This document shows positions 2,757 through 53,277 of a stretch of 64,000 nucleotides of DNA, in pieces (position 1 is the first letter of the stretch; every line of letters starts with the position of its first letter). The stretch lies in the NCBI RefSeq assembly GCF_041381155.1, contig NC_091134.1, positions 28,091,540 to 28,155,539 on the forward strand, in the 5' to 3' direction. The DNA is from Argopecten irradians. Lineage: Eukaryota > Mollusca > Bivalvia > Pectinida > Pectinidae. The notes under the pieces were generated by a model. It was not told where the DNA came from. It saw only the letters and a program-made list of their open reading frames with translations, and did no database searches. The translations under genes and the position numbers were made by a program.

Positions 2757-2873
2757 GTAAGGATAGCCGAGCAGTCGACAGACTCAAGGTACATTGTACA
2801 TAGCCTTCTCATTTTGTGAGCCGAGTGTTATGGTCCACGTACGTGGGCGTGGGTTCGAATTCTACTTCTGACA
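2757..2873 (+). pseudogene. tRNA-Leu-like copy at the left edge of the array
   Basis: It has the same shortened D arm and long intron as the copy at 1364, but a normal GGTTCGAAT T loop. A T7 run follows. By position it is the first tRNA of the tandem array, 2,288 bp before the first intact gene. Confidence 0.75.
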
Positions 2874-3431
2874 CTGATTTTTTTGTTACCTTTCCAAAGT
2901 TATCGTTATATCTAACAGTTGATTTGCTAATAATTTTTTTATTACGAATGAGTTCTTATTATGACAATGTCATTGAAGCATGTATATAACGGATGACAAT
3001 ATAATAATATTTATTGTCATTTTGGCGGATATTCCGCTTACCTCTGACTTTCATGTAAACAAAAGATAATTATGTACAAAATAGCATAAACAGTTATCAC
3101 ATTAACGCACAATTAGAATTATCACAGAATTAAATTTACCAACATCAATGCTTAGCCAGCAGGTAATCTGTATACAACAATGCCTGATATACCTATGTGC
3201 TTTTGTAGTAAAGATGGTAAAAATTGACAACATGCACGCTAGTAAAGTGTTAAAATGCAGTGTTGAGCATATCTAAAGGTATACTAGCTAGTAAATAGTT
3301 TAATCGTGCACTGTTGAATGTTCTGGAGCAGGAAATTATTTCACACTTAACCCCTATCAATAACAAGGATTAGAATAAGCTCCATGTTTTGGTACCTGGA
3401 TACGGGCATCTTTAAAACATTTGAAATCGTT

Positions 3432-3858
3432 ACCAAGATAGTTTGATACAAATTCGGTTACACCATTGGACAGCATGCATTATACCTCTTTTGAATTTCG
3501 AATAGTCCTTGATAGGTAATTATCGATTCACAATAAAGTGAACATGTCTATTGACGGTGTATCGAATTGGGATCTAGTGTTTATATAGCTGGCTGTTTTT
3601 GGGCCTATGACGGTTATTGTAAAAGGTACAACCATTCCTTGACTATGCTACTAAAAGTTAATTGTGGAAAATGATAGATATGGAAAAAACATGGATGGTT
3701 CTTATTAACCCTAAACTGTGATTAAGTTTAGACACAATGGATGAGATATTATCTGACCAGGATAAATGCTCGTCGATTTTTACACATAGATGTTGATACA
3801 TAGTTATGTACCTATTTTTTTCAAAATATATGGTACATTTGTCAAGCATTTCAAGCAA
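3432..3858 (-). mobile_element. LINE reverse transcriptase C-terminal remnant, unit 1
   Basis: On the minus strand the frame at 3658-3858 contains KIDEHLSWSDNISSIVSKLN. This matches the pattern that follows the catalytic core of many non-LTR reverse transcriptases (LGV-IDE-LSW-DHI---K----LG-L). About 200 bp further along the same strand comes a stretch matching the LPIKDYLKFKRGI tail motif. The order and strand fit a 3' LINE fragment of CR1/L2/jockey type, clade unresolved. The upstream catalytic part is absent. This copy reads LGLIRTIHVF where the others read LGLLKTFHVF. Confidence 0.6.
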
Positions 3859-4096
3859 GTTTTTGTTTTGATTTAACTATTATGCATCGAGTTTTTTATT
3901 TACTCACTATATTGTCGGAGCACAAATATTGTACTTATATCAGATCATATTATAATTGATCCTGAACGTGACACAGTTACCAGAGCATACTGAAGACGAT
4001 TTAAGTCCACAGTAAATTTGTAATCAAACTTCACGGTAATAATAGCCATTAAAATAAATAAGATTTGGTATCGTGATGTCGTGATGAAAGTAGCAA

Positions 4097-4210
4097 GTCA
4101 GGATGGCCGAGCAGTTCAAGGCGCAAAACTCAAGGTGCATAGCCTTCTCACTCTGTGAGTCGAGTGTCTGGCCCACGTATGTGGCCAAGGTTCGAATCCC
4201 ACTTCTGACA
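4097..4210 (+). pseudogene. tRNA-Leu copy B, unit 1
   Basis: This is the second tRNA-Leu of the unit. The D loop has AGTTC in place of GGTCT, which spoils the A box and the conserved G18-G19. The 5' anticodon stem is CAAAA against TCTGG (two mismatches). The acceptor stem and anticodon are kept; the B box is kept although its flank reads GGCCAAGGTTCG here. Probably not a working tRNA. Confidence 0.75.
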
Positions 4211-4317
4211 ATGATATTTGTTCAATAATTTTGTTTTCGTTAATAATAAACTCTCTCATAAGGTAGACTTCCTCTTAATTTGGTTATTACTAAATAGAAA
4301 TATCACATTTTTATACA

Positions 4318-4590
4318 AAGTGGTTTGATTACTTGTAGAAACGCGTTAAACGTTAAAATATTGTTGTCAACGTATGTGCCGTGGGTTCGAATCCCACTTC
4401 TGACAATGATATTTGTTCAATAATTTTGTTTTCGTATAATAATAAACTCTAGGTTTGTTACTTAGAAACAGTTAATAATATTGTTGGTAGAGCCGTGGTT
4501 CGAACCACTTCTGACTGATAATTTTGGTTAATTAAACTCTATCATAATAGACTTCCTCTAATTTGGTTATACTAAATAGAAATATCACAT
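4318..4590 (+). repeat. local re-duplication of tRNA-B 3' end and flank
   Basis: Unit 1 has ~274 extra bases between copy B and the next tRNA gene (948 bp against 674 bp in unit 2). They consist of two further pieces of the 3' half of copy B (4367-4405 and 4481-4515), each with its atgatatttgttcaataatt flank. The junction reads ATATTGTTGTC followed by the tRNA variable arm. Traces of this junction reappear at 11,363, 26,180 and 31,150. Confidence 0.75.
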
Positions 4591-5051
4591 TTTTATACAA
4601 AGTGGTTTGATTACTTGTAGAAACCACGTTAAACGTTAAAATATTGTAAACAGAAAACGGTGAACTACGGTATACAGGGAGGGAAATGTGGGTAATGTTA
4701 ACTAATAACCTCTCTTTCTGCTTTATGATCCAAAGCACCTAGTAAATCAGATAGTTGTTTCCTATAAGAGAGATAATCATAACGAACCTGGCGGTTATCT
4801 GCCACCCATACATTGTACCGTTTGAGGCTTATCGTCATACCTGTAATACTAAATATTTTAAGTATGAAGAAGGTATAAGTAATTGTTGTAATATCAGTCA
4901 ATTATGGTACATAATAGTAGATAAACTGATAGCTATTTTCTTTTGAGAGATTTAGACAATGTAGTAAGAATAATCCTAAGTCATATGAAGGTGACACAAT
5001 AAGTGGAGTACATCGTGATAATACATCGAAGGTATGGTTAAGTAGTCAGGA

Positions 5052-5062
5052 TGGCCGAGCGG
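5052..5062 (+). promoter_or_regulatory. pol III A box of tRNA-Leu
   Basis: TGGCCGAGCGG matches the TFIIIC A-box consensus (TRGYNNARNGG). It is given once as the type example; the other intact genes have the same word eight bases from their start. Confidence 0.85.
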
Positions 5063-5082
5063 TCTAAGGCGCCAGACTCAAG

Positions 5083-5114
5083 GTATATAGCCTTCTCACT
5101 GAATGAGTCGAGTG
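5083..5114 (+). other. tRNA intron
   Basis: A 32-bp insert between the base 3' of the anticodon and TTCTGG. It contains a small CTCA/TGAG hairpin. Both splice points fall in the anticodon loop as required by the tRNA splicing endonuclease. Confidence 0.9.
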
Positions 5115-5138
5115 TTCTGGTCCACGTATGTGGGCGTG

Positions 5139-5149
5139 GGTTCGAATCC
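5139..5149 (+). promoter_or_regulatory. pol III B box of tRNA-Leu
   Basis: GGTTCGAATCC, a perfect B box inside the T arm. The A-to-B distance is stretched by the intron and long variable arm to about 77 bp start to start, still within the range TFIIIC tolerates. Confidence 0.85.
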
Positions 5150-5165
5150 CACTTCTGACACTATA

Positions 5166-5170
5166 TTTTT
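5166..5170 (+). terminator. pol III T5 terminator
   Basis: A TTTTT run starting six bases after the discriminator base. It is conserved after every intact copy in the array. Confidence 0.85.
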
Positions 5171-5948
5171 GTTACATTTCTAAAGGTATATATTTAATAG
5201 TTGATTCTCTATTTCAAAATTTTATTATTACGAATGAGTTGCAAATATGTTAATGTCATTAATGCATGTTTACTAAAAAAAGGTTTCCAATTCAATGTGC
5301 ACATCATGCATAAATCAGCTAATGGGAAATGTTATCAAGTATTGGTAAATAAGTTATATATGGAGTAACATTAAACTTTATCGATTAGGAATGAGAACAT
5401 CTTTAGCAAAGCCTACCTTTCTGTTAGTAGAATTGGTTAGTCATTATAACGTATCACAGATAATAATATACAAAAAGTTAATTTGTCATCATATGATGGA
5501 TGGAAAAAATAAAGAAATTAAATTTATTATCCATTATCTACAGTAAACAAAACATAAGTATGTAAAAAAAATATGAATACATATATATCATAGAAAATGT
5601 TAAGCCCACAGTTATCACATAAAAGCACAATTTGAATTATTATAGAATTAAATCTACCAACATTGATGCTTAGCCAGCAGGTAATCTGTATACAACAATG
5701 CCTGACATACCTATGTGATTTTGTAGCAAAGATGGTAAAAATTGACAACATGCACGCTAGTAAAGTGTTAAAATGCAGTGTTGAGCATATCTAAAGGTAT
5801 ACTAGCTAGTAAATAGTTTAATCGTGCACTGTTGAATGTTCTGGAGCAGGAAATTATTTCACAATTAACCCCTATCAATGACAAGGATTAGAATAAGCTC
5901 CATGTTTTGGTACCTGGATACGGGCATCTTTCAAACATTTGAAATCGT

Positions 5949-6372
5949 TACCAAGATAGTTTGATAAAAATTCGGTTACACCATTGGACAGCATGCATTA
6001 TACCTCTTTTGAATTTCAAATAGTCCTTGATAGGTAACTATCGATTCACAATAAAGTGAACATGTCTATTGACGGTGTATCGAATTGGGATCTAGTGTTT
6101 ATATAGCTGGCTGTTTTGGGCCTATGACGGTTATTGTAAAAGGTACAACCATTCCTTGACTATGCTACTAAAAGTTAATTGTGAAAAAAGATAGATATGG
6201 AAAAAACATGGAAGGTTTTTAGTAACCCTAAACTGTGATTAAGTTTAGACACAATGGATGAGATATTATCTGACCAGGATAAATGCTCGTCGATTTTTAC
6301 ACATAGATGTTGATACATAGTTATGTACCTATTTTTTTTCAAAATATATGGTACATTTGTCAAGCATTTCAA
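5949..6372 (-). mobile_element. LINE reverse transcriptase remnant, unit 2
   Basis: The reverse transcriptase tail motif lies at 6175-6372 and the LPIKDYLKFKRGI stretch at about 5949-6036, both on the minus strand and in the order expected for a LINE C-terminus. The two parts are in different frames with stops between, so the fragment is dead. The N-terminal catalytic part is missing. Confidence 0.6.
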
Positions 6373-6614
6373 GCAAGTTTTTGTTTTGATTTAACTATTA
6401 TGCATCGAGTTTTTTATTTACTCACTATATTGTCGGAGCACAAATATTGTACTTATATCAGATCATATTATAATTGATCCTGAACGTGACACAGTTACCA
6501 GAGCATACTGAAGACGATTTAAGTCCACAGTAAATTTGTAATCAAACTTCACGGTAATAATAGCCATTAAAATAAATAAGATTTGGTATCGTGATGTCGT
6601 GATGAAAGTAGCAA

Positions 6615-6730
6615 GTCAGGATGGCCGAGCAGTTCAAGGCGCAAAACTCAAGGTGCATAGCCTTCTCACTCTGTGAGTCGAGTGTTCTGGTCCACGTATG
6701 TGGGCGTGGGTTCGAATCCCACTTCTGACA
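6615..6730 (+). pseudogene. tRNA-Leu copy B, unit 2
   Basis: Same D-loop and anticodon-stem damage as the other B copies. Its variable arm is TCCACGTATGTGGGC, identical to that of the intact A gene, unlike the GCCCACGTATGTGGCC form of most B copies. This suggests gene conversion from A to B. Confidence 0.75.
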
Positions 6731-7288
6731 ATGATATTTGTTCAATAATTTTGTTTTCGTTAATAATAAACTCTCTCATAAGGTAGACTTCCTCTTAATT
6801 TTTGGTTTATTACTAAATAGAAATATCACTCATTTTTATACAAAGTGGTTTGTTTACTTGTAGAAACCACGTTAAACGTTAAAATATTGTAAACAGAAAA
6901 CGGTGAACTAGCGGTATACAGGGAGGGAAATGTGGGTAATGTTAACTAATAACCTCTCTTTCTGCTTTATGATCCAAAGCACCTAGTAAATCAGATAGTT
7001 GTTTCCTATAAGAGAGATAATCATAACGAACCTGGCGGTTATCTGCCACCCATACATTGTACCGTTTGAGGCTTATCGTCATACCTGTAATACTAAATAT
7101 TTTAAGTATGAAGAAGGTATAAGTAATTGTTGTAATATCAGTCAATTATGGTACATAATAGTAGATAAACTGATAGCTATTTTCTTTTGAGAGATTTAGA
7201 CAATGTAGTAAGAATAATCCTAAGTCATATGAAGGTGACACAATTAGTGGAGTACATCGTGATAATACATCGAAGGTATGGTTAAGTA

Positions 7289-7404
7289 GTCAGGATGGCC
7301 GAGCGGTCTAAGGCGCCAGACTCAAGGTATATAGCCTTCTCACTGAATGAGTCGAGTGTTCTGGTCCACGTATGTGGGCGTGGGTTCGAATCCCACTTCT
7401 GACA
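7289..7404 (+). tRNA. tRNA-Leu(CAA) with intron, unit 2
   Basis: All 116 bases match the gene at 5045, including the intron. The T5 terminator is at 7410-7414. Confidence 0.95.
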
Positions 7405-8188
7405 CTATATTTTTGTTACATTTCTAAAGGTATATATTTAATAGTTGATTCTCTATTTCAAAATTTTATTATTACGAATGAGTTGCAAATATGTTTATGT
7501 CATTAATGCATGTTTACTAAAAAAAGGTTTCCAATTCAATGTGCACATCATGCATAAATCAGCTAATGGGAAATGTTATCAAGTATTGGTAAATAAGTTA
7601 TATATGGAGTAACATTAAACTTTATCGATTAGGAATGAGAACATCTTTAGCAAAGCCTACCTTTCTGTTAGTAGAATTGGTTAGTCATTATAACGTATCA
7701 CAGATAATAATATACAAAAAGTTAATTTGTCATCATATGATGGATGGAAAAAATAAAGAAATTAAATTTATTATCCATTATCTACAGTAAACAAAACATA
7801 AGTATGTAAAAAATATAAATACGTCTATCATAGAAAATGTTAAGCCCACAGTTATCACATAAAAGCACAATTTGAATTATTATAGAATTAAATCTACCAA
7901 CATCAATGCTTAGCCAGCAGGTAATCTGTATACAACAATGCCTGACATACCTATGTGCTTTTGTAGCAAAGATGGTAAAAATTGACAACATGCACGCTAG
8001 TAAAGTGTTAAAATGCAGTGTTGAGCATATCTAAAGGTATACTAGCTAGTAAATAGTTTAATCGTGCACTGTTGAATGTTCTGGAGCAGGAAATTATTTC
8101 ACAATTAACCCCTATCAATAACAAGGATTAGAATAAGCTCCATGTTTTGGTACCTGGATACGGGCATCTTTAAAACATTTGAAATCGT

Positions 8189-8611
8189 TACCAAGATAGT
8201 TTGATAAAAATTCGGTTACACCATTGGACAGCATGCATTATACCTCTTTTGAATTTCAAATAGTCCTTGATAGGTAACTATCGATTCACAATAAAGTGAA
8301 CATGTCTATTGACGGTGTATCGAATTGGGATCTAGTGTTTATATAGCTGGCTGTTTTGGGCCTATGACGGTTATTGTAAAAGGTACAACCATTCCTTGAC
8401 TATGCTACTAAAAGTTAATTGTGAAAAAAGATAGATATGGAAAAAACATGGAAGGTTTTTAGTAACCCTAAATTGTGATTAAGTTTAGACACAATGTATG
8501 AGATATTATCTAACCAGGATAAATGCTAGTCGATTTTTACACATAGATGTTGATACATAGTTATGTACCTATTTTTTTCAAAATATATGGTACATTTGTC
8601 AAGCATTTCAA
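8189..8611 (-). mobile_element. LINE reverse transcriptase remnant, unit 3
   Basis: Same fragment as at 5949-6372. It carries private substitutions, for example a TAG-creating change in the block that reads EHLSW elsewhere, so its frame is even less open. Confidence 0.55.
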
Positions 8612-8853
8612 GCAAGTTTTTGTTTTGATTTAACTATTATGCATCGAGTTTTTTATTTACTCACTATATTGTCGGAGCACAGATATTGTACTTATATCAG
8701 ATCATATTATAATTGATCCTGAACGTGACACAGTTACCAGAGCATACTGAAGACGATTTAAGTCCACAGTAAATTTGTAATCAAACTTCACGGTAATAAT
8801 AGCCATTAAAATAAATAAGATTTGGTATCGTGATGTCGTGATGAAAGTAGCAA

Positions 8854-8968
8854 GTCAGGATGGCCGAGCAGTTCAAGGCGCAAAACTCAAGGTGCATAGC
8901 CTTCTCACTCTGTGAGTCGAGTGTTCTGGCCACGTATGTGGCCGTGGGTTCGAATCCCACTTCTGACA
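8854..8968 (+). pseudogene. tRNA-Leu copy B, unit 3
   Basis: B-type D loop and anticodon stem. One base is missing in the variable arm (TGGCCACGTATG). Confidence 0.75.
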
Positions 8969-9525
8969 ATGATATTTGTTCAATAATTTTGTTTTCGTTA
9001 ATAATAAAACTCTCATCATAAGGTAGACTTCCTCTTAATTTGGTTATTACTAAATAGAAATATCACATATTTTTATACAAAGTGGTTTGATTACTTGTAG
9101 AAACCACGTTAAACGTTAAAATATTGTAAACAGAAAACGGTGAACTAGCGGTATACAGGGAGGGAAATGTGGGTTATGTTAACTAATAACCTCTCTTTCT
9201 GCTTTATGATCCAAAGCACCTAGTAAATCAGATAGTTGTTTCCTATAAGAGAGATAATCATAACGAACCTGGCGGTTATCTGCCACCCATACATTGTACC
9301 GTTTGAGGCTTATCGTCATACCTGTAATACTAAATATTTTAAGTATGAAGAAGGTATAAGTAATTGTTGTAATATCAGTCAATTATGGTACATAATAGTA
9401 GATAAACTGATAGCTATTTTCTTTTGAGAGATTTAGACAATGTAGTAAGAATAATCCTAAGTCATATGAAGGTGACACAATAAGTGGAGTACATCGTGAT
9501 AATACATCGAAGGTATGGTTAAGTA

Positions 9526-9641
9526 GTCAGGATGGCCGAGCGGTCTAAGGCGCCAGACTCAAGGTATATAGCCTTCTCACTGAATGAGTCGAGTGTTCTG
9601 GTCCACGTATGTGGGCGTGGGTTCGAATCCCACTTCTGACA
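9526..9641 (+). tRNA. tRNA-Leu(CAA) with intron, unit 3
   Basis: Identical to the gene at 5045 over all 116 bases, with the same T5 terminator downstream. Confidence 0.95.
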
Positions 9642-10427
9642 CTATATTTTTGTTACATTTCTAAAGGTATATATTTAATAGTTGATTCTCTATTTCAAAA
9701 TTTTATTATTACGAATGAGTTGCAAATATGTTTATGTCATTAATGCATGTTTACTAAAAAAAGGTTTCCAATTCAATGTGCACATCATGCATAAATCAGC
9801 TAATGGGAAATGTTATCAAGTATTGGTAAATAAGTTATATATGGAGTAACATTAAACTTTATCGATTAGGAATGAGAACATCTTTAGCAAAGCCTACCTT
9901 TCTGTTAGTAGAATTGGTTAGTCATTATAACGTATCACAGATAATAATATACAAAAAGTTAATTTGTCATCATATGATGGATGGAAAAAATAAAGAAATT
10001 AAATTTATTATCCATTATCTACAGTAAACAAAACATAAGTATGTAAAAAAATATAAATACATATATCATAGAAAATGGTAAGCCCACAGTTATCACATAA
10101 AAGCACAATTTGAATTATTATAGAATTAAATCTACCAACATCAATGCTTAGCCAGCAGGTAATCTGTATACAACAATGCCTGACATACCTATGTGCTTTT
10201 GTAGCAAAGATGGTAAAAATTGACAACATGCACGCTAGTAAAGTGTTAAAATGCAGTGTTGAGCATATCTAAAGGTATACTAGCTAGTAAATAGTTTAAT
10301 CGTGCACTGTTGAATGTTCTGGAGCAGGAAATTATTTCACAATTAACCCCTATCAATAACAAGGATTAGAATAAGCTCCATGTTTTGGTACCTGGATACG
10401 GGCATCTTTAAAACATTTGAAATCGTT

Positions 10428-10854
10428 ACCAAGATAGTTTGATACAAATTCGGTTACACCATTGGACAGCATGCATTATACCTCTTTTGAATTTCAAATA
10501 GTCCTTGATAGGTAACTATCGATTCACAATAAAGTGAACATGTCTATTGACGGTGTATCGAATTGGGATCTAGTGTTTATATAGCTGGCTGTTTTGGGCC
10601 TATGACGGTTATTGTAAAAGGTACAACCATTCCTTGACTATGCTACTAAAAGTTAATTGTGAAAAAAGATAGATATGGAAAAAAACATGGAAGGTTTTTA
10701 GTAACCCTAAACTGTGATTAAGTTTAGACACAATGGATGAGATATTATCTGACCAGGATAAATGCTCGTCGATTTTTACACATAGATGTTGATACATAGT
10801 TATGTACCTATTTTTTTCAAAATATATGGTACATTTGTCAAGTATTTCAAGCAA
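10428..10854 (-). mobile_element. LINE reverse transcriptase remnant, unit 4
   Basis: The open part here is 81 codons because one extra A near 10,681 shifts past the usual stop. Beyond the KIDEHLSW block it reads TFHVFFHIYLF. This is a homopolymer change, not evidence of function. Confidence 0.55.
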
Positions 10855-11092
10855 GTTTTTGTTTTGATTTAACTATTATGCATCGAGTTTTTTATTTACT
10901 CACTATATTGTCGGAGCACAAATATTGTACTTATATCAGATCATATTATAATTGATCCTGAACGTGACACAGTTACCAGAGCATACTGAAGACGATTTAA
11001 GTCCACAGTAAATTTGTAATCAAACTTCACGGTAATAATAGCCATTAAAATAAATAAGATTTGGTATCGTGATGTCGTGATGAAAGTAGCAA

Positions 11093-11208
11093 GTCAGGAT
11101 GGCCGAGCAGTTCAAGGCGCAAAACTCAAGGTGCATAGCCTTCTCACTCTGTGAGTCGAGTGTTCTGGCCCACGTATGTGGCCGTGGGTTCGAATCCCAC
11201 TTCTGACA
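11093..11208 (+). pseudogene. tRNA-Leu copy B, unit 4
   Basis: Typical B copy with the GCCCACGTATGTGGCC variable arm, which pairs with itself better than it does in the damaged copies of units 1 and 3. The anticodon stem is still mismatched. Confidence 0.75.
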
Positions 11209-11764
11209 ATGATATTTGTTCAATAATTTTGTTTTCGTTAATAATAAACTCTCTCATAAGGTAGACTTCCTCTTAATTTGGTTATTACTAAATAGAAATA
11301 TCACATTTTTATACAAAGTGGTTTGATTACTTGTAGAAACCACGTTAAACGTTAAAATATTGTTGTCCAGAAAAACGGTGAACTAGCGGTATACAGGGAG
11401 GGAAATGTGGGTTAATGTTAACTAATAACCTCTCTTTCTGCTTTATGATCCAAAGCACCTAGTAAATCAGATAGTTGTTTCCTATAAGAGAGATAATCAT
11501 AACGAACCTGGCGGTTATCTGCCACCCATACATTATACCGTTTGAGGCTTATCGTCATACCTGTAATACTAAATATTTTAAGTATGAAGAAGGTATAAGT
11601 AATTGTTGTAATATCAGTCAATTATGGTACATAATAGTAGATAAACTGATAGCTATTTTCTTTTGAGAGATTTAGACAATGTAGTAAGAATAATCCTAAG
11701 TCATATAAAGGTGACACAATAAGTGGAGTACATCCTGATATTACATCGAAGGTATGGTTAAGTA

Positions 11765-11880
11765 GTCAGGATGGCCGAGCGGTCTAAGGCGCCAGACTCA
11801 AGGTATATAGCCTTCTCACTGAATGAGTCGAGTGTTCTGGTCCACGTATGTGGGCGTGGGTTCGAATCCCACTTCTGACA
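11765..11880 (+). tRNA. tRNA-Leu(CAA) with intron, unit 4
   Basis: Identical to the gene at 5045. About 30 bp upstream this unit has two private changes (catcctgatatt), showing that flanks vary while the gene does not. Confidence 0.95.
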
Positions 11881-12665
11881 CTATATTTTTGTTACATTTC
11901 TAAAGGTATATATTTAATAGTTGATTCTCTATTTCAAAATTTTATTATTACGAATGAGTTGCAAATATGTTTATGTAATTAATGCATGTTTATAAAAAAA
12001 GGTTTCCAATTCAATGTGCACATCATGCATAAATCAGCTAATGAGAAAAGTTATCAAGTATTGGTAAATAAGTTATATATGGAGTAACATTAAACTTTAT
12101 CGATTAGGAATGAGAACATCTTTAGCAAAGCCTACCTTTCTGTTAGTAGAATTGGTTAGTCATTATAACGTATCACAGATAATAATATACAAAAAGTTAA
12201 TTTGTCATCATATGATGGATGGAAAAAATAAAGAAATTAAATTTATTATCCATTATCTACAGTAAACAAAACATAAGTATGTAAAAAAAATATAAATACA
12301 TATATCATAGAAAATGGTAAGCCCACAGTTATCACATAAAAGCACAATTTGAATTATCATAGAATTAAATCTACCAACATCAATGCTTAGCCAGCAGGTA
12401 ATCTGTATACAACAATGCCTGACATACCTATGTGATTTTGTAGCAAAGATGGTAAAAATTGACAACATGCACGCTAGTAAAGTGTTAAAATGCAGTGTTG
12501 AGCATATCTAAAGGTATACTAGCTAGTAAATAGTTTAATCGTGCACTGTTGAATGTTCTGGAGCAGGAAATTATTTCACAATTAACCCCTATCAATAACA
12601 AGGATTAGAATAAGCTCCATGTTTTGGTACCTGGATACGGGCATCTTTAAAACATTTGAAATCGT

Positions 12666-13091
12666 TACCAAGATAGTTTGATACAAATTCGGTTAACACC
12701 ATTGGACAGCATGCATTATACCTCTTTTGAATTTCAAATAGTCCTTGATAGGTAACTATCGATTCACAATAAAGTGAACATGTCTATTGACGGTGTATCG
12801 AATTGGGATCTAGTGTTTATATAGCTGGCTGTTTTTGGGCCTATAACGGTTATTGTAAAAGGTACAACCATTCCTTGACTATGCTACTAAAAGTTAATTG
12901 TGAAAAAAGATAGATATGGAAAAAACATGGAAGGTTTTTAGTAACCCTAAACTGTGATTAAGTTTAGACACAATGGATGAGATATTATCTGACCAGGATA
13001 AATGCTCGTCGATTTTTACACATAGATGTTGATACATAGTTATGTACCTATTTTTTTTCAAAATATATGGTACATTTGTCAAGCATTTCAA
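12666..13091 (-). mobile_element. LINE reverse transcriptase remnant, unit 5
   Basis: Same fragment; the open part at 12,894-13,091 is identical in protein terms to that of unit 2. Confidence 0.55.
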
Positions 13092-13333
13092 GCAAGTTTT
13101 TGTTTTGATTTAACTATTATGCATCGAGTTTTTTATTTACTCACTATATTGTCGGAGCACAAATATTGTACTTATATCAGATCATATTATAATTGATCCT
13201 GAACGTGACACAGTTACCAGAGCATACTGAAGACGATTTAAGTCCACAGTAAATTTGTAATCAAACTTCACGGTAATAATAGCCATTAAAATAAATAAGA
13301 TTTGGTATCGTGATGTCGTGATGAAAGTAGCAA

Positions 13334-13449
13334 GTCAGGATGGCCGAGCAGTTCAAGGCGCAAAACTCAAGGTGCATAGCCTTCTCACTCTGTGAGTCGA
13401 GTGTTCTGGCCCACGTATGTGGCCGTGGGTTCGAATCCCACTTCTGACA
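13334..13449 (+). pseudogene. tRNA-Leu copy B, unit 5
   Basis: Same sequence type as the B copy at 11093. Confidence 0.75.
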
Positions 13450-14002
13450 ATGATATTTGTTCAATAATTTTGTTTTCGTTAATAATAAACTCTCTCATAA
13501 GGTAGACTTCCTCTTAATTTGGTTATTACTAAATAGAAATATCACATTTTTATACAAAGTGGTTTGATTACTTGTAGAAACCACGTTAAACGTTAAAATA
13601 TTGTAAACAGAAAACGGTGAACTAGCGGTATACAGGGAGGGAAATGTGGGTAATGTTAACTAATAACCTCTCTTTCTGCTTTATGATCCAAAGCACCTAG
13701 TAAATCAGATAGTTGTTTCCTATAAGAGAGATAATCATAACGAACCTGGCGGTTATCTGCCACCCATACATTGTACCGTTTGAGGCTTATCGTCATACCT
13801 GTAATACTAAATATTTTAAGTATGAAGAAGGTATAAGTAATTGTTGTAATATCAGTCAATTATGGTACATAATAGTAGATAAACTGATAGCTATTTTCTT
13901 TTGAGAGATTTAGACAATGTAGTAAGAATAATCCTAAGTCATATGAAGGTGACACAATTAGTGGAGTACATCGTGATAATACATCGAAGGTATGGTTAAG
14001 TA

Positions 14003-14118
14003 GTCAGGATGGCCGAGCGGTCTAAGGCGCCAGACTCAAGGTATATAGCCTTCTCACTGAATGAGTCGAGTGTTCTGGTCCACGTATGTGGGCGTGGGTT
14101 CGAATCCCACTTCTGACA
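14003..14118 (+). tRNA. tRNA-Leu(CAA) with intron, unit 5
   Basis: Identical to the gene at 5045. A short plus-strand open frame begins inside its variable arm and is a chance read-through. Confidence 0.95.
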
Positions 14119-35738: not shown

Positions 35739-35783
35739 TGCCCCCCCCCCCCCACCCCCCCCACCCCACCCCCCCCCCCCCCA
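35739..35783. repeat. poly-C tract
   Basis: Runs of C broken by single A bases, placed where clean units read atgtacctatttttttcaaa. The neighbouring unit has a similar C12 run at 31,193-31,204. Confidence 0.85.
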
Positions 35784-41234: not shown

Positions 41235-41351
41235 GTCAGGAAGAGCCGATTTATTAAGGCGCCAGACTCAGGTTATAGCCTTTCACTGAATGAGTCGAGT
41301 GTTCTGGTCCACGTATTTTTTTGGGCGTGGGTTCGAATCCCACTTCTGACA
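41235..41351 (+). pseudogene. tRNA-Leu(CAA) copy with motif replacement
   Basis: The D arm is overwritten by gagccgatttatt; the rest, including GGTTCGAATCC and TTCTGACA, is intact. Confidence 0.55.
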
Positions 41352-42781
41352 CTATATTTTTGTTAATTTCTAAAGGTATATATTTATAGTTGATTTTATT
41401 TCTAAGAGATTTATTGACCAATTTTATTTTACGAGAGAGTTGCAAATAGTTAATGTCATTAATGCATGTTTACTGGCCACACTTTTCTTTCAATGTGCAC
41501 ATTGCATAAATCAGCTAATGGGAAATTTATCACAGTATTTTCTTATAAGTTATATATGGAGTAACATTAAGAGATTTATCGATTAGGCCACACTTTTCTA
41601 CCTTTTGTTAGAGAATTGGAAGTCATTATGCGTATCACAGATAATAATATGGCCAAAAAGTTTCTTTTCATCAGAGAGGTTGGAAAAAATAAAGTAAATT
41701 GAATTTATTATCCATTATCTCAGTAAACAAAATAAGAGGTGTAAAAAAGTATAAATGCTATCATAGAAAATGTATTGCCCACAGTTATCTTTTTTGAGCA
41801 CAATTAGAATTATGCATAGAGATTTATATCTACCATTGGCGACACTTTTCAATGCTTAGCCAGCAGGTAATCTGTATACAACAATGCTGACATAATGTGA
41901 TTTTTGTAGCAACTTTTCTTTTGGTAAAAGGTTTGACAACATGCACGCTAGTAAAGTGTTAAAATGCAGTGTTGGAATATCTAAAGATTTATTAGCTAGT
42001 AACTTTAGTTTAATCGAGACTGTTGAATGTTATGGAGTAAGGAATTTATTGGCCACACTTTTCTTTTAACAGAGGTTGGAATAAGCTCCAGTTTTGGTAC
42101 CTTATTACGGGCATCTTTTAAAACATTTGAAATCGTTACCAAGAGAGTTTGATACAAATTCTTTACACCATTGGACAGCATGCATTATTACCACACTTTT
42201 CGAATTTCCTTGAGAGGTTGGAAGTATGATTCACAATAAAGTGAACATGTCTATTGACCATCACTTTTCTAGTTTTATAGAGCTGGCTGTTTTTGGCCTA
42301 ACGGTTATTGTAAAAGGTACAACCATTCCTTGACTATGCTACTAAAAGTTAATTTTGAGAGAGGTTTATAGATATGAAAAAAACAGGAAGGTTTTATTAA
42401 CCCACACTTTGATTTTTTTAGAGAGGATGAGATTTATCTGACCAGGATAAATGCTTCGATTTTTACACATGTTTACATAGTTTGTACCTAATTTTTTTTC
42501 AAAATATATGGTACAGTTGTCATTTATTTCCACACTTTTTTTTTTGATTTAAGTATGCATAAGAGTTTTTTATTTACCACACTTTTTTTCGGAGCACAGA
42601 TATTGGACTTATATCAGATCATATTATTTAATTGATCCAACGTTTCTTTTTACCAGAGCATACTGCAGTAAGAAGACGATTTAAGTCCAAAGTAAATTTG
42701 TAATGGCCAAACTTCACGGTAATAATAGCCATTAAAATAAATAAGATTTTTGGTATCGTGATGTCGTGATGAAAGTAGCAA

Positions 42782-42903
42782 GTCAGGATGGCCGAGCGGT
42801 CAAGGCGCAAAACTCAAGAGGTGCATAGCCTTCTCAGTATGCTCACTCTGTGAGTCGAGTGTTCTTCCACGTTGTGGGCGTGGGTTCGAATCCCACTTCT
42901 GTA
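42782..42903 (+). pseudogene. tRNA-Leu copy B, altered
   Basis: The A box is intact here (TGGCCGAGCGG), unlike in clean B copies, but the D arm is shorter and the intron carries a small insertion. Confidence 0.5.
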
Positions 42904-43491
42904 ATGATATTTATTCACCACACTTTTCTTTTTTAGAGTTTTCGAAGTATGCATAAAACTCTTATTAAGGTAGACTTTCCTCTTAATTTGGTTATTACTA
43001 AATTGGAAGTATGCATATAACATTTTTATAGAAAGTGATTTTATTACTTGTAGAAACCACGTTAAAGTATGTTAAAATATTGTAAACAGAAAACTTGAAC
43101 TTCGGTATAGGGGAGGGAAGTATGCAGTAAGTTAATTTATAACCACTCTTTCTCTTTTGATCCAGAGCACCTAGTAAATCAGATTTAGTTGTTTCCTATA
43201 AAGAGAGATAATTATATAACGAACTTGGCACACTTTTATCTGCCAGAGAGGTTGTACCGTTTGAGGCTTATCGTCAGACCTGTAATACTAAATATTTTAG
43301 AAGTATGGAGAAGGTATAAGTAATTGTTGTAATATCAGTCAATTATGGTACATAATAGTAGCAATAAAACTGATAGCTACTTTTCTTTTGAGAGATATAG
43401 ACAATGTAGTAAGAATAATCCTAAGTCATATAAGAAGGTGACACAATTAGTGGAGTACATCGTGATAATACATCGAAGGTATGGTTAAGTA

Positions 43492-43607
43492 GTCAGGATG
43501 GCCGAGCGGTCTAAGGCGCCAGACTCAAGGTATATAGCCTTCTCACTGAATGAGTCGAGTGTTTGGTCCACGTATATGGGCGTGGGTTCGAATCCCACTT
43601 ATTGACA
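43492..43607 (+). pseudogene. tRNA-Leu(CAA) copy, nearly intact
   Basis: Differs from the intact gene by loss of TC before TGG at the 3' anticodon stem, one change in the variable arm (GTATATGGGC) and TTATTGACA at the end. These could be consensus errors. Confidence 0.6.
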
Positions 43608-45100
43608 CTATATTTTTGTTACATTTCTAAAGGTATATATTTAATAGTTGATTCTCTATTTCAAATTTTATTATTACGAATGAGTTGAAAATATGTTTAA
43701 TGTCATTAATGCATGTTTACTAACAAAAAAAGGTTTCCAATTCAATGTGCACATCATGCATAAATCAGCTAATGGGAAATGTTATCAAGTATTGGTAAAT
43801 AAGTTTATATATGGAGTACATTAGAACTTTTCGATTAGAGAATGTAAACATCTTTAGCAAACTTATCTTTCTGTTAGTAGAGAATTGGTAAAGTCATTAA
43901 AAACGTATCACAGATAATAATATACAAAAAGTTTTTGTCAGAGAGGATGGATGGAAAAAAAGTAAAGAAAGAATTTTTATTGGCCACATTTTACAGTAAA
44001 GAGAAAACATGGAAGTATGTAAAAAAATATAAATACACTTTTCTATCATAGAAAGGTTAAGCCCAAGTTATCACATAAAAGCACAATTAGAATTGGCCAT
44101 AGAATTAAATCTACCAACATTGCTTAGCCAGCAGGTTAATCTGTATACAACAATGCCTGATTTACCTGGCCACACTTTTCTTTTGTAGCAAAGATGGTAA
44201 AAATTGACAACATGCACGCTAGTAAAGTTTATTGGCCACACTTTGCAGTTTGAGCATATCTAAAGGTATACTAGCTAAGTAAATAGTTTAATCGTGCACT
44301 GTTTGAATGTTCTGGAGCAGGAAATTATTTCACAATAAACCCTATCAATAACAAGGATTAGAATAAGCTCCATGTTTTGGTACCTGGATACGGGCATCTT
44401 TAAAACATTTGAAATCGTTACCAAGATAGTTTGATACAAATTCGGTTACACCATTGGACACCATGCATTATACCTCTTTTTTTCGAATAGTCCTTGATAG
44501 GTAACTATTCACAATAAAGTGAACATGTCTATTGACGGTGTATCGATCGAATTGGGATCTAGTGTTTATATAAGCTGGCTGTTTTTGGGCCTATGACGGT
44601 TATTTTTTAAAAGGTACAACCATTCCTTGACTATGCTACTAAAAGTTAATTGTGGAAAAAAAGATAGATATGGAAGTAAACATGGAAGGTTTTAGTAACC
44701 CTAAACTGTGATTAAGTTTAGACACAATGGATTGAGATAGTATCTGCAGGATAAATGCTCGTCGATTTTTACACATAGATGTTGATACATAGTTATGTAC
44801 CTAATTTTTTTTCAAAATATATGGTACATTTGTCATGCATTTCAAGCAAGTTTTTGTTTTGATTTAACTATTATGCATCGAGTTTTTTATTGGCTCACTA
44901 TATTGTCTTTTGAGCAGAAATATTGTACTTATATCAGATCATATTATAATTGACTTTTCTTTTGAACGTGACACAGTTACCAGAGCATACTGAAGTACGA
45001 GATTTAAGTCCACAGTAAATTTGTAAGAAAACTTCACGGTAAGTAATAGCCATTAAAATAAATAAGATTTGGTATCGTGATGTCGTGATGAAAGTAGCAA

Positions 45101-45216
45101 GTCAGGATTTTTCCAAGAGGTTGGAAGTAACTAAAGATTTATTAGCCACTTCTTTTTGTGAGTCGAGTGTTTGGTCCACGTAAAGTGTGGCGTGGGTTCG
45201 AATCCCACTTCTGACA
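45101..45216 (+). pseudogene. tRNA-Leu copy B with motif replacement
   Basis: The middle (45,111-45,160) is taken by the 52-bp motif; the 3' end from GGGTTCGAATCCC is intact. Confidence 0.5.
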
Positions 45217-45777
45217 ATGATATTTGTTCAAGATTTTGTTTTCGTTAATAATAAACTCTCTCATAAGGTAGACTTCCTCTTAATTTGGTTATTACTAAAT
45301 AGAAATAAATATCACATTTTTATAAAGTGATTTTGACCATTACTTGTAGAAAACCACGTTAAACGTTAAAATATTGTAAAAGAAAAAGAAAATTGAACTA
45401 TCGGTATACAGGGAGGGGAAGTATGCAGTAATGTTAACTAATAACCTCACTTTTCTGCTTTATGATCCAAAGCACCTAGTAAATCAGATAGTTTTTCCTT
45501 AAGACAGATAATCTTATTTAACGAACTTGGCGGTTTCTGCCACCCATACATGTACCGTTGAGGCTTATCGTCATACCTGTAATACTAAATATTTTAAGTA
45601 TGGAGAAGGTATAAGTAATTGTTTAATATCAGTCAATTATGGTACATAATAGTATATAAACTAATAGCTATTTTCTTTTGAGAGATTAGACAATGTAGTA
45701 AGAATAATCCTAAGTCATTGAAGGTGACACAATTAGTGGAGTACATCGTGATAATACATCGAAGGTATGGTTAAGTA

Positions 45778-45892
45778 GTCAGGATGGCCGAGAGGTCTAA
45801 GGCGCCAGACTCAAGGTATATAGCCTTCTCACTGAATGAGTCGAGTGTTCTGGTCCACGTATGTGGGCGTGGGTTCGAATCCCACTTTGACA
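45778..45892 (+). pseudogene. tRNA-Leu(CAA) copy, nearly intact
   Basis: One substitution in the A box (GAGAGG) and one base missing in the 3' acceptor strand (CACTTTGACA). May be intact in the genome. Confidence 0.6.
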
Positions 45893-47356
45893 CTATATTT
45901 TTGTTACATTTCTAAAGGTATATATTTAATAGTTGATTCTCTTTTCAAAATTTTTTATTACGAATGAGTTGCAAATAGGTTTAATGTCATTAATGCATTT
46001 TACTAAAAAAAAGGTTTCCAATTCAATGTGCACATCATGCATGGCCATCAGCTAATGGGAAATTTTAGAAGTATTATTGAGTATGCAGTAAGAGATATAT
46101 GGAGTAACATTTAAACTTTATCGATTAGGAAGTATGCAGAAGAGATTTAGCAAACAACTTTCTTTAGAGAATTTTCAAGTACAGTAACAGATTTATATAC
46201 AAAAAGTTAATTTGTCATTTGAGAGGATGGAAAAATGCAATAAGAGATTGTAATTTATTATCCATTATCTACAGTAAACTAAACATAAGTATGTAGTAAA
46301 AAAATATAAATACGTCTATCATAGAGAGAAAGGTATGATTTTAAAACCACAGTTATCACATAAACGCACAATTAGAATTATTATAGAATTATATTGGAAT
46401 CAATGCTTAGCCAGCAGGTAATCTGTATACAACAATGCCTGACATTATGTGCTTTTGTAGCAAAGATGGTAAAAATTGACAACAACATGCACGCTAGTAA
46501 AGTGTTAAAATGCAGTTTGAGCATATCTAAAGGTTATACTAGCTAGTAAATAGATTTATTCGCCACACTTTTGTTGAATGTTCTGGAGCAGGAAATTAAT
46601 TTCACAATTGGCCACCCTATCTTTCTTTTAACAAGAGAGTTGGAAGAATAAGATTCCATGTTTTGGTACCTGGATACGGGCATGTTTAAAACATTTGAAA
46701 TCGTTACCAAGATAGTTTTACAAATTTTATACCATTGGACACCATGCATTATACCTCTTTTGAATTTCGAAAATAGTCCTTGATAGGTAACTATCGATTC
46801 ACAATAAAGTGAACATGTCTTTTTCTTTGACGGTGTATCGAATTGGGGAAGTGTTTATATAGCTGGCTTTTTTGGCCTATGACTTTTATTTAAAAGGTAC
46901 AACCATTTTGACTATGTACTAAAAGTTAATTGAGAAAATTTAGATTGGAAAAAACATGGAAGGTTTTAGAGAGGTTGGATTAAGTTTAGCAATAATGAGA
47001 TTTTATTGACCAGGATAAATGCTCGTCGATTTTTACACATAGATGTTGATACATAGATTTATGTGCCTAACTTTTTTTTTTAAGAGATATGGTACATTTG
47101 TCAAGCATTTCACACTTTTTTGTTTTGATTTAACTATTAGGCATCGAGTTTTTTATTTACTGTTTTCTATTTTGAGAGAGGTTGGAAAGCACAAATATTT
47201 ATTGGCCACACATTTTAATTGATCCTGAACGTGACACAGTTACCAGAGCATACTGAAGACGATTTAAGTCCAAAGTAAATTTGTTATTGAAACTTCACGG
47301 TAATAATAGCCAGTTAAAATAAATTATTTGGTACGTGATTCGTGATTCTTTAGCAA

Positions 47357-47464
47357 GTCAGGATGGCCGAAGGTCCAAGGCGCAAAACTCAAGGTTTAGC
47401 CTTCTCACTCTGTGAGTCGAGTTTTGGTTTTATGTGGGCGTGGGTTCGAATCCCACTTCTGCAG
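47357..47464 (+). pseudogene. tRNA-Leu copy B, altered
   Basis: Lacks bases in the D loop and variable arm, and its end is overwritten by a gcagtaagag motif word. Confidence 0.5.
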
Positions 47465-48023
47465 TAAGAGATATTTATTCAATACTTTTTCTTTCGTTAA
47501 TAATAAACTCTATCATAAGGATTAGACTTCCTCTTAATTTGGTTATTACTAAGACAGATAAAATATCACACTTTTTTTTGAGAAAGAAGTTTTTTATTAT
47601 TGCCAAAACCACTTTTAAACGTTAAAATATTGTAAACAGAAAACGGTGGAACTATCGGTATACAGGGAGGGAAATGTTATTGGCCACTCTCTTTCTGCTT
47701 TATGATCCAAAGAATATTTAGTAAATCAGATAGTTGTTTCCTATAAGAGAGATATCATATATAACGAACTTGGCGGTTATCTGGCCACCCATACATTGTA
47801 CCGTTTGAGGCTTAGACCTGTAATACTAAATATTTTAAGTATGGAGAAGGTATAAAGCCAATTGTTGTAATATCAGAGAATTATGGTAATAATGCAGTAA
47901 AATTAATTGGCACATTTTCTTTTGAGAGATATAGACAATGTAGTAAGAATAATCCTAAGTCATATGAAGGTGACACAATTAGTGGAGTACATCGTGATAA
48001 TACATCGAAGGTATGGTTAAGTA

Positions 48024-48141
48024 GTCAGGATTTGGCCGAGCGGTCTAAGGCGCCAGACTCAAGGTATATAGCCTTCTCACTGAATGAGTCGAGTGTTCTG
48101 GTCCACGTATGTGGGCGTGGGTTCGAATCCCACTTCTGACA
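48024..48141 (+). tRNA. tRNA-Leu(CAA) with intron, last full unit
   Basis: It matches the gene at 5045 except for two extra T bases just after the acceptor stem (AGGATTTGGCC). All other arms, the intron and the T5 terminator are intact, so it is probably a real gene with a consensus error. Confidence 0.7.
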
Positions 48142-49631
48142 CTATATTTTTGTTACATTTCTAAAGGTATATATTTTAATAGTTGATTCTCTATTTCAAA
48201 TTTTATTATTACGAATGAGTTGTAAATAGGTTAATGTCATTAATGCATGTTTACTAAAAAAATTCAATGTGCACATCATGCATAAATCAGCTAATGGGAA
48301 ATGTTATCAAGTATTGGTAAATAAGTTATATATGGAGTAACATTAAACTTTATCGATTAGAAAAATGCAAAGAACTGTTAGTAGAATTGGTTTCATTAAA
48401 CGTATCACAGATAATAATATACAAAAAGTTAATTGTCATCATGATGGATGGAAAAAAAATAAAGAAATTGAATTTATTATCCATTATCTACAGTTAAACT
48501 AAACATAAGTATGTAAAAAAATATAAATACGTCTATCATAGAAAATGTAGAAAATGTAAACCCACAGTTTATCACATAAACGCACAATTAGAATTATCAT
48601 AGAATTAAATCTACCAAAATCAATGCTTAGCCAGCAGGTAATCTGTATACAACAATGCCTGACATACCTATGTGCTTTTGTAGCAAAGATGGTAAAAAAT
48701 TGACAACATGCACGCTAGTAAAGTGTTAAAAATGCAGTTGTTGAGCATATCTAAAGGTATATACTAGCTAGTAAATAGTTTTAATCGTGCACTGTTGAAT
48801 TTTCTGGAGCAGGAAATTATTTCACTATTAAACCCTATCAATAACAAGGATTAGAATAACTCCATGTTTTGGTACCTGGATACGGGCATCTTTAAAACAT
48901 TTGAAATCGTTACCAAGATAGTTTGATAAAAATTCGGTTACACCATTGGACACCATGCATTAACCTCTTTTGAATTTCGAATAGTCCTTGATAGGTAACT
49001 ATGGGAATTCACAATAAAGTGAACATGTCTATTGACGGTGTAATCGAAATGGGATCTAGTTTGTTTATTAGCTGGCTGTTTTGGGCCTATGACGGTTATT
49101 GTAAAAGGTACAACCATTCCTTGACTATGCTACTAAAAGTTTTAATTTGTGATAAAAATTATAGATATGGAAAAAAAACATGGAAGGTTCTTAGTGCTAC
49201 ATTGTAACCCTAAACTGTGATTAAGTTTAGACACAATGAATTTGAGATTTTTATCTGACCATAGGATAAATGCTCGTCGATTTTTTACACATAGATGTTA
49301 TACATAGTTATGTACCTAATTTTATTTATAAAATCTATATGGTACATTTTTGTCATGCATTTCAAGCAAGTTTTTGTTTTGATTTAACTATTATGCATTT
49401 ATTTTTGATTTACTCACTATATTGTTATTGAGCACTTTCAAATATTGTACTGATATCAGATCATATTATAATTGATCCTGATTTGAGTGACACAGTTACC
49501 AGAGCACAGGTTCTTGAAGACGATTTAAGTCCCAGTAAATTTTACATTTGTGTCCTAATGATTCACCCCGGTAATAATAGCCATGAAAATAAATACAGAT
49601 TTGTATCGTGGGATGTCGTATTTAGAAAAGT

Positions 49632-49775
49632 CTTGTCTGTTTTAAGTTTTTTATTTTAGGATATTTAGTGTGTCCAAGGTTTCAAAACATCAAGTGCTTG
49701 CATAGCCTTCTCACTCTGTAAGTTTTGTTCTGGCAACGTTCATTTGGGTTAGGGTTCGAATCCCATGGACTTCTG
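49632..49775 (+). pseudogene. tRNA-Leu copy B at the blurred array end
   Basis: Words of copy B (catagccttctcactctgt, gggttcgaatccca, cttctgacaatg) are mixed with words found at 54,013-54,050 (cttgtctgttttaag, atatttagtgtg). Confidence 0.45.
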
Positions 49776-50399
49776 ACAATGATATTTTTGTTGTTCATTA
49801 GGTTTTGTTTTGTTGTTAATTTTGAAAACTCTTTCTTGAAATGGTAGACTTCCTGTTTTAGCTTTGGTTATTACTAAATACAAATATAGGGAAATCACAT
49901 TTTTTATAGAAAGTGGCTTTGTGAATAACAATTGTTAAAAACACAGGTACGAACGTTAATACGCTATATTGTATTTAAAAAATACAGTAAAACTTGAAAT
50001 ATACATTATAAGGGCTTCGTAATGACAATATAACTCTTAAATGTTAACTAACGTCTCTCTTTCTGCTATTGTGAATCTTCACCTGTAAACTTCAATACTT
50101 TTCTTATAAGATAGAATAAATATATAAATTTGTACCTGTTTTTACCAATACTTTTGGATTATTGTCAGTTTTTATTATTACAATCCTTATCGAATATACT
50201 GTTTAATAGGCCTGTAACCTGTGGAGGAAAACAGGATAGTTCGATGGACCAATGACGACTACAAGTGTTGTATAAGAAATCTTTACTAATAGATCACGAG
50301 GTTGTCAATTAATGGACATAAATATGTTATATAAACAAATATTAAATTTTCTTTTTGTCGAGATCGTTAGACAATGTAGTGATCTCTTGGACATGAATA

Positions 50400-53277
50400 A
50401 AATCACCGTATTTCACTTAACAACATCTGGAAAAAGTATTGAAAATACTAATTATTTAAAACATATCGACGAATTTTCATGAATTGACGTATAATTACCT
50501 AAGTAATGCATACTTCGAAGGTTATATTTTACCCCATTTTTGAGATCTTTTAAATATTCCAGCCGTGATTGGGCTGGCAAAATTATGAATTTCAATAAAT
50601 TATCTAATGTTTTCTGACAGGTTTTAGTTCCTTGATTAACCTTTCATGATATGAATTTGGAAATTTAGATTGAATTTAGGTTCAAAATATCAATTTTTAA
50701 TGAATAGGTAAAAACATTAGAATTTCAGGTTTTTTACAAAGTGACTGAAAAATATATCCTTATCTTATGAAGATCTTGGACCCAATGCGGAATAACAATT
50801 TACGATTAAGAGTTTTAGTATAAATAGATAACCGGATTTATACTACCTTTGGCCACATGCCACATCATGTAATCAGGAAACTAAAATAATGATTCAAAAC
50901 TTTTGATGAGTTCGTTATATCCTTCCGCCATTTTGATTCATATTGCTATTAGTAACTTGGTCATTTTAAGATGTCTGAAAGGCATGATCTTTCACATCCA
51001 ATTCAGGTAAAACATTTCACCTTTGAATTTTCATGAATTACTGCTAAAAATTTACGTTAAAAAATGAACGAAACGCCATAATTCGGAGGTCTATATTTCC
51101 GCCATATTTCAAATTCATGTCTTTGAAATTAAAAAACCTGTACAGACAATAGGCTAAATCTTACATTTACAAAATTCAACACTCTACATGAGATGATAAA
51201 GGCCCTACGAGCTCACAAATAACGGAAAAAAATAAGAAAATGAAACAAATTGCCATATTTGGAGAGCTATATTTCCGCCATTTTTCTATATAACCCCTTA
51301 AAAATAAATAACTTTTGAAGACAAAAGTTCCTCACAACAAGTAGGTTTGAAAAAATTAACACTGTACATACAGGTTTAAAGGCGCTGTAAAACGTCTCGT
51401 GCAAGGACAAATAATAAACTAAAATTTCGATTTTCGATGTCCTATATCTCCGCCATTTTGAATCTTATGACCTTGAACTTGGTCATTTTATGTGTCTGAA
51501 AGCATGATCTTTCACATCCAATTCAAAACATTTCACCTTTGAATTTCTTTCATGAATTACGCCTAAAATTTACGTTAAAAATGAACGAAACGCCATATTC
51601 GGATGTGTCTATATTTCCGCCATTTTTCAAATATCATGTCTTTGAAATTAAAAACCTGTACAGACAATAGGCTAAAGCTTACATTTACAAAAATTCAACA
51701 CCCTACATGAGACGATAAAGGCCCTACGAGCTCACAAATAACGGACAAAAATAAGAAAATGAAACAAATTGCCATATTTGGAGAGCTATATTTCGCCATT
51801 TTTTCTATATAACCCTTTAAAAATAATATAACTTGTTGAAGACAAAAGTTAATACAATCATAGGTATGAAAAATCAACACTGTCATACACGTATTAAGGA
51901 GCTGAAAAACGTCTCGAGCGAGAGGGACAAATTATAAACTAAAATTTCGATTTTTGTTGGTCCTATAATCTCCGCCATTTTGAATCTTATGACCTTGAAT
52001 TTGGTCATTTTATTGTGTGCCTGAGAAACATGCTCTTTCATATGCGCCAATTTCGAAACATTTCTATGGTAAAGTTCATTTTTGAACCTTTGTTTTGACC
52101 TCATTTGACCACCTAGTGAACTCGTGACCTTGACAAAATTCTGATAACAAGAAATGAGAAAAAATCGTGAATTATCGTGATAGTACATGGAGAATTGAAA
52201 ACGCACATGTTGTGTAGCGTACGGTTATGAATTTATGAGCGATTTAATGTTCGTTCGAAAAAAAGCGTTTTTTTCGGTCTGTGACCCTTGACCTTGAACG
52301 TTATCCTCCAAAATCGAGCGCCCACATTTCAAGAAACTCATGTAGTACATTACGTCTCCATATCTTCAGGCGCTCTACACCTCTTTATTTATAAAGAAGA
52401 TGTCGTTTTAAAGATTGGAAAGCTTTTGAATCCTGTGATCCTTGAATGAATGTCAAGGTCAATATAAAAGGAATTATAGTTCTGTAGGGACATTCGTCCA
52501 TTGCTTATATCTATACAAAAAATTCAAGCATGTATGTTAAGTATTTAAAGGCGCTGAAACCTTTAAAAATTTTTGGCGGGGAAAACGACCAAAATAGCCG
52601 ATTTTTTCAAAGGCCTATATCTCCGCCATTTTGGATCTCATGACCTTAAAACTTGTCATTATATATTTCTGAGGGCATGACCTTTCATATTCAACTTTCA
52701 AATTTTTTCTGTGTTGAATTTCGTTTTTGACCTTTGTTTGACCCCGTAGCGAACTCTTGACCTTGACATAATCTCTGATAACATGGCATGGGAAAAGCAC
52801 GCGCAATGTCACGATCTGTCTGAATAACAAAACGTGAACGATGTACAGCGTACGGTAATGAAGTTATGAGCGTTTTAAACTTCGTTCAAAAAAAAATTGT
52901 TTTTTACGTCTGTGACCTTGACCTTGAACATTTTTGTAAAAAATCGAACGTACATTTCAAGATCTTATGTACATTCATAACGTGTCCAAAGTTGAGCGTC
53001 GTACCTTATTTCCGTTCCTGAGATATCCTGCTAACAAGATTTGTGGAAATAAGTGGAAATAAGAAAAAAAAAGAAAAATAAAAATAAGAAGAAACTAGAT
53101 TTGATCGCGATCAAAACACGGGATTTCCACCTATGTAATGATATAAGTAATGTTAGCGAACAGACGATTGCTTGAACGAACGGACGATCTCACTCAATAT
53201 TAATCAGAAAGCGTTTCTTACGAAAGTAGTCTGGTTCAACCGAAAAACAGATTTAGGGGAATCCCCCTTTGGGCAGA
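50400..53277. repeat. satellite block, copy 1
   Basis: Paralogous to 54,600-58,031. It begins with ~500 bp matching 54,895-55,195, then has two higher-order satellite units (about 50,928, 51,452 and 51,974) and then the same series of tgaccttga-rich monomers. It ends at the word ctttgggca, after which the two blocks diverge completely. It carries more small insertions than copy 2. Confidence 0.85.
53100..53115. other. 16-bp perfect palindrome
   Basis: TTTGATCGCGATCAAA follows an A-rich tract. The same palindrome occurs at 57,853-57,868 in block copy 2. Confidence 0.8.

Follow-up and report, generated by a model that had tools for sequence, protein, structure and literature searches.

It is likely that the tandem array described here arose when a functional tRNA-Leu(CAA) gene was amplified as a macrosatellite by unequal crossing-over, and that the decay seen in units 8-19 of the array is mostly base error. 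The array lies in a 64,000-nucleotide window of the Argopecten irradians genome (GCF_041381155.1, NC_091134.1, positions 28,091,540 to 28,155,539 of the forward strand), which is the whole stretch of DNA that was analyzed. We refer to the intact gene of each unit as gene A and to a second, decayed copy as locus B; coordinates within the window are given in Table 1.

Organization of the array

Searching the window with one unit using BLASTN returned 19 units arranged head-to-tail, each approximately 2.24 kb long, that extend from 5045 to ~50.1 kb as assembled. With its many long head-to-tail units carrying tRNA genes, the array has the structure of a tDNA tandem repeat (macrosatellite or VNTR). 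The initial annotation had placed about 20 such units from position 2757 onwards; the array itself was recovered, with 19 starts between 5045 and 48024, but the segment 2757-5044 proved to be a broken edge. The clean units (5045-18477) are 98.6-98.8% identical to each other, with the same range when each is compared to unit 2, and the GC content of the unit is 33%. Unit 7 has 43 insertion versus 8 deletion events, most of which fall in its second half.

Rfam returned 20 tRNA matches in the window, every one on the plus strand. Up to 18.6 kb these alternate between seven copies of gene A (48.1 bits) and six of locus B (37.8-41.1 bits), and the remainder lie in the right part of the array. Scanning a unit against Rfam revealed tRNA only and no other RNA, and the ~2 kb of spacer per unit is without recognisable constraint. 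In an intact unit, both loci derive from tRNA-Leu(CAA) and share one strand, A being intact and B decayed. The claim that each unit carries one tRNA-Leu(CAA) therefore holds for gene A, but overlooked a second tRNA-like locus that is present in every intact unit.

Table 1. Features of the tRNA-Leu(CAA) array and its left edge, in window coordinates.
Feature	Position	Strand	Details
Gene A, first copy	5045..5160	+	116 bp; Rfam RF00005 48.1 bits; 100% identity
Gene A, other identical copies	7289-7404, 9526-9641, 11765-11880, 14003-14118, 16243-16358, 18478-18593	+	
Gene A intron	5083..5114	+	32 nt, between positions 37 and 38; read from sequence
Likely Pol III terminator (TTTTT) downstream of gene A	5166..5170	+	T-run begins 6 nt past the gene
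Locus B, first copy	6615..6730	+	Rfam 37.8-41.1 bits across the series; G18A; two anticodon-stem mismatches
Locus B, other copies	8854-8968, 11093-11208, 13334-13449, 15571-15686, 17812-17926	+	
Six clean units	5045..18477	+	Starts 5045, 7289, 9526, 11765, 14003, 16243; 2235-2244 bp
Unit 7	18478..20774	+	Clean start; last third insertion-rich
Units 8-19	20775..50100 (end approximate)	+	Error-laden but recognisable; private insertion-rich differences; majority A equals clean A
Starts of units 8-13	20775, 24305, 26794, 29186, 31822, 34314	+	
Starts of units 14-19	36790, 38976, 41235, 43492, 45778, 48024	+	
Inserted motif	21884-22721	+	
Motif-blended stretch, units 13-18	36240..47694	+	~52 nt motif mixed with unit sequence
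Broken edge unit	3090..5044	+	Pieces 97-98% identical to unit; B copy 4097-4210; duplicated B fragments
Degenerate A-type copies	2751..2882, 1358-1490	+ (2751..2882)	BLASTN to A and 3' flank, ~80%
Degenerate tRNA-Leu copies	2260..2375, 866-981	-	Rfam 27.5 and 24.0 bits, below gathering score of 29

To the left of the array, a 1.07 kb block occurs twice (442-1521 and 1836-2913) with 5 differences, three of which fall within tRNA-like copies. Each block carries one member of the degenerate A-type pair and one of the minus-strand pair, and the blocks are separated by a 321-bp repeat that contains a 7/21-bp GC-rich tandem. The block pair represents either a recent or a false duplication. To the right, a second large repeat is present in at least two copies (50900-53270 and 54900-58020), the right copy having an internal period of ~505 bp. 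A 59-bp unit is repeated in tandem approximately 16 times, with scattered extra bases, at 59348-60312 (reverse complement GTGGCTGAGTGGTTAAGGTGTCTGACA), and looks like a tRNA-derived SINE fragment. TRNA-derived SINE-like sequence also occurs at 62380-62620 (GTGGGGTAGTGATTAAACCACTGACC...CCGGGGTTTGATCCCC), which we take to be of a type found in molluscs; the dispersed repeats of the window presumably resemble those of marine bivalves. Among the ORFs listed for the flanks there are only short ones.

Gene A has the features of an intact tRNA-Leu(CAA) gene

Gene A comprises the acceptor strand GTCAGGA, a D arm with GG, a long variable arm, a T arm, and A73. Its anticodon stem is CCAGA/TCTGG and its loop reads CTCAAG followed by T, with the intron after G37; the mature form is 84 nt. 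When aligned to the Rfam tRNA model, positions 1-71 were all matched and no non-standard pairs were flagged, and the acceptor, D, anticodon, and T arms are intact. The sequence also contains the long variable arm, A73, CAA anticodon, and intron between positions 37 and 38 of a tRNA-Leu(CAA), in agreement with the initial description of tandemly arrayed tRNA-Leu(CAA) genes that contain an intron, and the TTTTT tract is a likely Pol III terminator. That seven successive A genes are identical over all 116 bp was likewise borne out, each scoring 48.1 bits. Gene A does not look pseudogene-like, and the outcome named beforehand as damaging, that the repeated gene would score as a pseudogene, did not materialize with the Rfam tRNA model. 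An exact search with the 5' half of gene A against genome and viral contig collections gave no match.

ARAGORN in its default mode found no loci because of the intron in the gene. With introns allowed it reported 20 loci in which the intron, and so the anticodon, is misplaced; the resulting Met(CAT) call for gene A is a consequence of the shifted intron and is contradicted by the long variable arm. The long variable arm together with the canonical intron site leads instead to Leu(CAA), an identity that we take from general tRNA identity rules rather than from an isotype model.

Locus B is probably a relic of an older duplication

Locus B starts ~1.57 kb (1567 bp) downstream of the start of gene A. 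In its first copy exon 2 is the same as that of A and exon 1 differs: G18 is replaced by A, and in the anticodon stem CAAAA faces TCTGG, which leaves 28-42 and 30-40 mismatched. In the predicted fold the acceptor, variable, and T arms are retained but a normal D or anticodon arm is missing; neither the D loop nor the anticodon stem is intact. Across units 1-6, variable positions number 0/116 in gene A, 5/116 in locus B, and 64/2004 in the spacers. Variation in B is at least at the level of the spacer, and B is therefore best read as a relic amplified along with the unit, probably a decayed older duplicate of the gene.

Two related tRNA sequences per unit could also be those of a mobile element, a Helenus-type TRIM whose terminal repeats contain a tRNA gene and which became tandemly arrayed. 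Helenus LTRs contain tRNA-like sequence, pteriomorph bivalves are among the hosts of these elements, and one family of them in fish is known to form tandem arrays (PMC10886601). We consider this origin extremely unlikely. The similarity between A and B detected by BLASTN is limited to ~125 bp covering the tRNA gene plus a few adjacent bases, and ends at about the gene ends with no LTR around it; TRIMs are <1 kb (PMC10886601) and the unit is 2.24 kb; and the bivalve families capable of encoding a tRNA encode tRNA-Thr (PMC10886601). The unit shows neither tRNA-like sequence inside LTRs nor a length of <1 kb, and we rejected its membership of this group.

Apparent decay of units 8-19

Beginning at ~20.2 kb the units become noisy, with clean patches within the noise, for example early in unit 8. 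Against a consensus built from units 1-6, insertion events in units 8-13 outnumber deletion events by ~8:1 (886 versus 114) and ts/tv is 0.29, whereas units 1-6 themselves have 20 insertion and 10 deletion events and a ts/tv of 0.86. The differences are mostly private, with 978 of the 1166 distinct substitutions in units 8-19 confined to one unit, and the insertion-rich private noise of units 8-13 is what raw, insertion-prone long reads look like. Taking the majority base over units 8-19, gene A differs from the clean A at 0/116 positions, and locus B has a single difference, which falls on a position already variable among the clean units. Since the majority is exactly gene A, the right-hand units most likely hold the same intact gene, and their apparent decay seems to be mostly assembly base error in unpolished long-read sequence rather than the mark of pseudogenes. 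The bases between ~20 and 50 kb are unreliable. The error classes and the majority sequence contradict a biological gradient in which decay would increase rightwards while A is conserved.

Alternatively, the divergence of units 8-19 could be genuine and old, gene A being in the course of decay mid-array, and units 1-7 would then be the product of a recent expansion. Approximately 20 substitutions are common to at least 4 of units 8-19, where random placement predicts <1, and some of the divergence is therefore real. Units 10 and 16-19 also have fewer differences in A than in the spacer, which could reflect real constraint and divergence rather than uneven polishing. We nevertheless find an old origin very unlikely given the insertion excess, the low ts/tv, and the mostly private differences. 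Furthermore, A is as noisy as the spacer in six units (12-17 differences per 100 in A versus 13-16 in the A-to-B spacer in units 9 and 11-15), noisy units contain clean patches, and a motif of ~52 nt is blended into the region at base level. A repeat copy outside of the array, at 51.2-53.3 kb in the right flank, has 53 extra-base events versus 21 in its partner at ~56-58 kb, indicating that the noise extends beyond the array.

The ~52 nt motif (TTTATTGGCCACACTTTT...AGAGAGGTTGGAAGTATGCAGTAA) gave 39 merged matches, on the plus strand only and only at 21.9-22.7 and 36.2-47.7 kb, and was not found in units 1-7. Between 36.2 and 47.7 kb it mostly overlies unit sequence with little change in length and base-by-base mixing; the start of the unit 14 A gene (36776-36816), for example, combines motif and gene bases. 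The blending would probably be explained if a read containing a satellite had been merged into the consensus. A near-pure A block of 53 nt (34650-34702) and a C block of 42 nt (35741-35782) were also observed, runs that are absent in the clean units and are likely raw-read artefacts.

Shared variants point to distinct units

Variants common to at least 4 units show spatial autocorrelation over the length of the array (Mantel r 0.34, p 0.0008), and the same test restricted to units 8-19 gave r 0.48 and p 0.0014. Exchange among neighbours by unequal crossing-over predicts this pattern, which suggests that the units are distinct, although a single long read covering several units would likewise make neighbours similar.

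These variants bear on whether the repeat number is itself an artefact, a few true units having been multiplied by mis-assembly. Consistent with this, polishing is poor across the region, which contains homopolymer blocks and a foreign motif mixed into unit sequence, and the 1.07 kb block left of the array, whose two copies are nearly identical, may have been falsely duplicated. We regard wholesale multiplication as improbable, as each of the clean units 1-6 has its own variants and the shared variants are distributed as expected for distinct neighbouring units.

Amplification of the unit and the question of dosage

The seven identical A genes are not extreme per se, given that 3-7% of stretches of equal length are invariant: in the six clean units, invariant 116-bp stretches make up 3.2% when only spacer is counted and 7% when whole units are counted. 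Polishing with multi-mapped short reads could also account for part of the likeness of the clean units. As evidence of selection, the invariance of A is weak and suggestive.

The initial annotation had offered two readings of the array, a dosage locus for UUG decoding or satellite-like amplification. Under the first, selection favouring abundant tRNA-Leu(CAA) would have driven the amplification and would maintain the copy number. Gene A is intact wherever its state can be assessed, the majority sequence of units 8-19 included, and the non-functional B has not been kept in this way. Recent amplification by itself, however, would leave A intact, and the amplification also took in the decayed B and 2 kb of spacer in each unit. 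We consider a dosage locus unlikely. The co-amplification of B and 2 kb of unconstrained spacer with an intact A favours the satellite-like reading.

In our proposed model of amplification, the starting segment would have been 2.24 kb long and would have contained a functional A and the older, decayed duplicate B. A tRNA gene with its own internal promoter does not depend on its neighbourhood, and so a segment that carries one can multiply by unequal crossing-over. The segment would have been amplified head-to-tail, most likely by this process, to at least seven and, as assembled, 19 units, yielding a macrosatellite with one intact tRNA gene per unit. Gene A would be transcribed by RNA polymerase III from the internal promoter, and its product would be spliced and used by the cell. 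Copy number would be expected to differ between individuals, and any extra supply of tRNA for UUG codons would be a by-product rather than the cause of the array. A more elaborate proposal, in which a single-isotype macrosatellite sets UUG decoding through its variable copy number and B is transcribed as a non-decoding tRNA-like RNA, strikes us as highly doubtful.

Discussion

Homogeneous tRNA arrays built from a long unit have rarely been described in animals, and no earlier report of the present one was found in the open-access literature searched. Each such array indicates that a single tRNA gene caught in satellite-like amplification can stay intact, and the array offers a site for asking whether tRNA copy number matters. 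As the apparent gene decay is mostly base error, counts of genes and pseudogenes taken from such an assembly would be wrong.

A tRNA gene array is also known from Xenopus. The initial annotation cited that precedent together with Entamoeba; the latter is relevant (PMC2652664), but the list was incomplete, lacking the close human array at 1q23.3 (PMC4041453). In the human array, a 7.3 kb unit holding five tRNA genes is repeated 9-43 times (PMC4041453, Darrow and Chadwick 2014), and its authors regard homogeneous arrays of this kind as uncommon outside of Entamoeba (PMC4041453). It is the nearest precedent, being likewise an animal array of many head-to-tail copies of a long unit in which tRNA genes are a minor part. 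However, the human unit is GC-rich, encodes four isotypes on both strands, contains a CTCF site, and has proven copy-number variation (PMC4041453), whereas the unit described here is 2.24 kb long, 33% GC, and carries a single isotype on one strand in one intact and one decayed copy.

Entamoeba likewise has tandem units carrying tRNA genes (PMC2652664). There, nearly all tRNA genes are arrayed, in 25 unit types with up to five genes and intergenic short tandem repeats (PMC2652664), while the present array has one isotype and a spacer without short tandem repeats. Homogeneous clusters in eukaryotes similarly combine same-isotype genes and pseudogenes in parallel orientation, but are defined by gene distances of <1 kb and not by a long regular unit (Bermudez-Santana et al. 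2010, PMC2888827). The Arabidopsis tRNA-Cys cluster also has one isotype in regular units, but comprises four genes in 0.4 kb units and is from a plant (PMC10701932). The Argopecten array adds another example to a known, if uncommon, class of tRNA arrays and is built from a single-isotype, one-strand unit.
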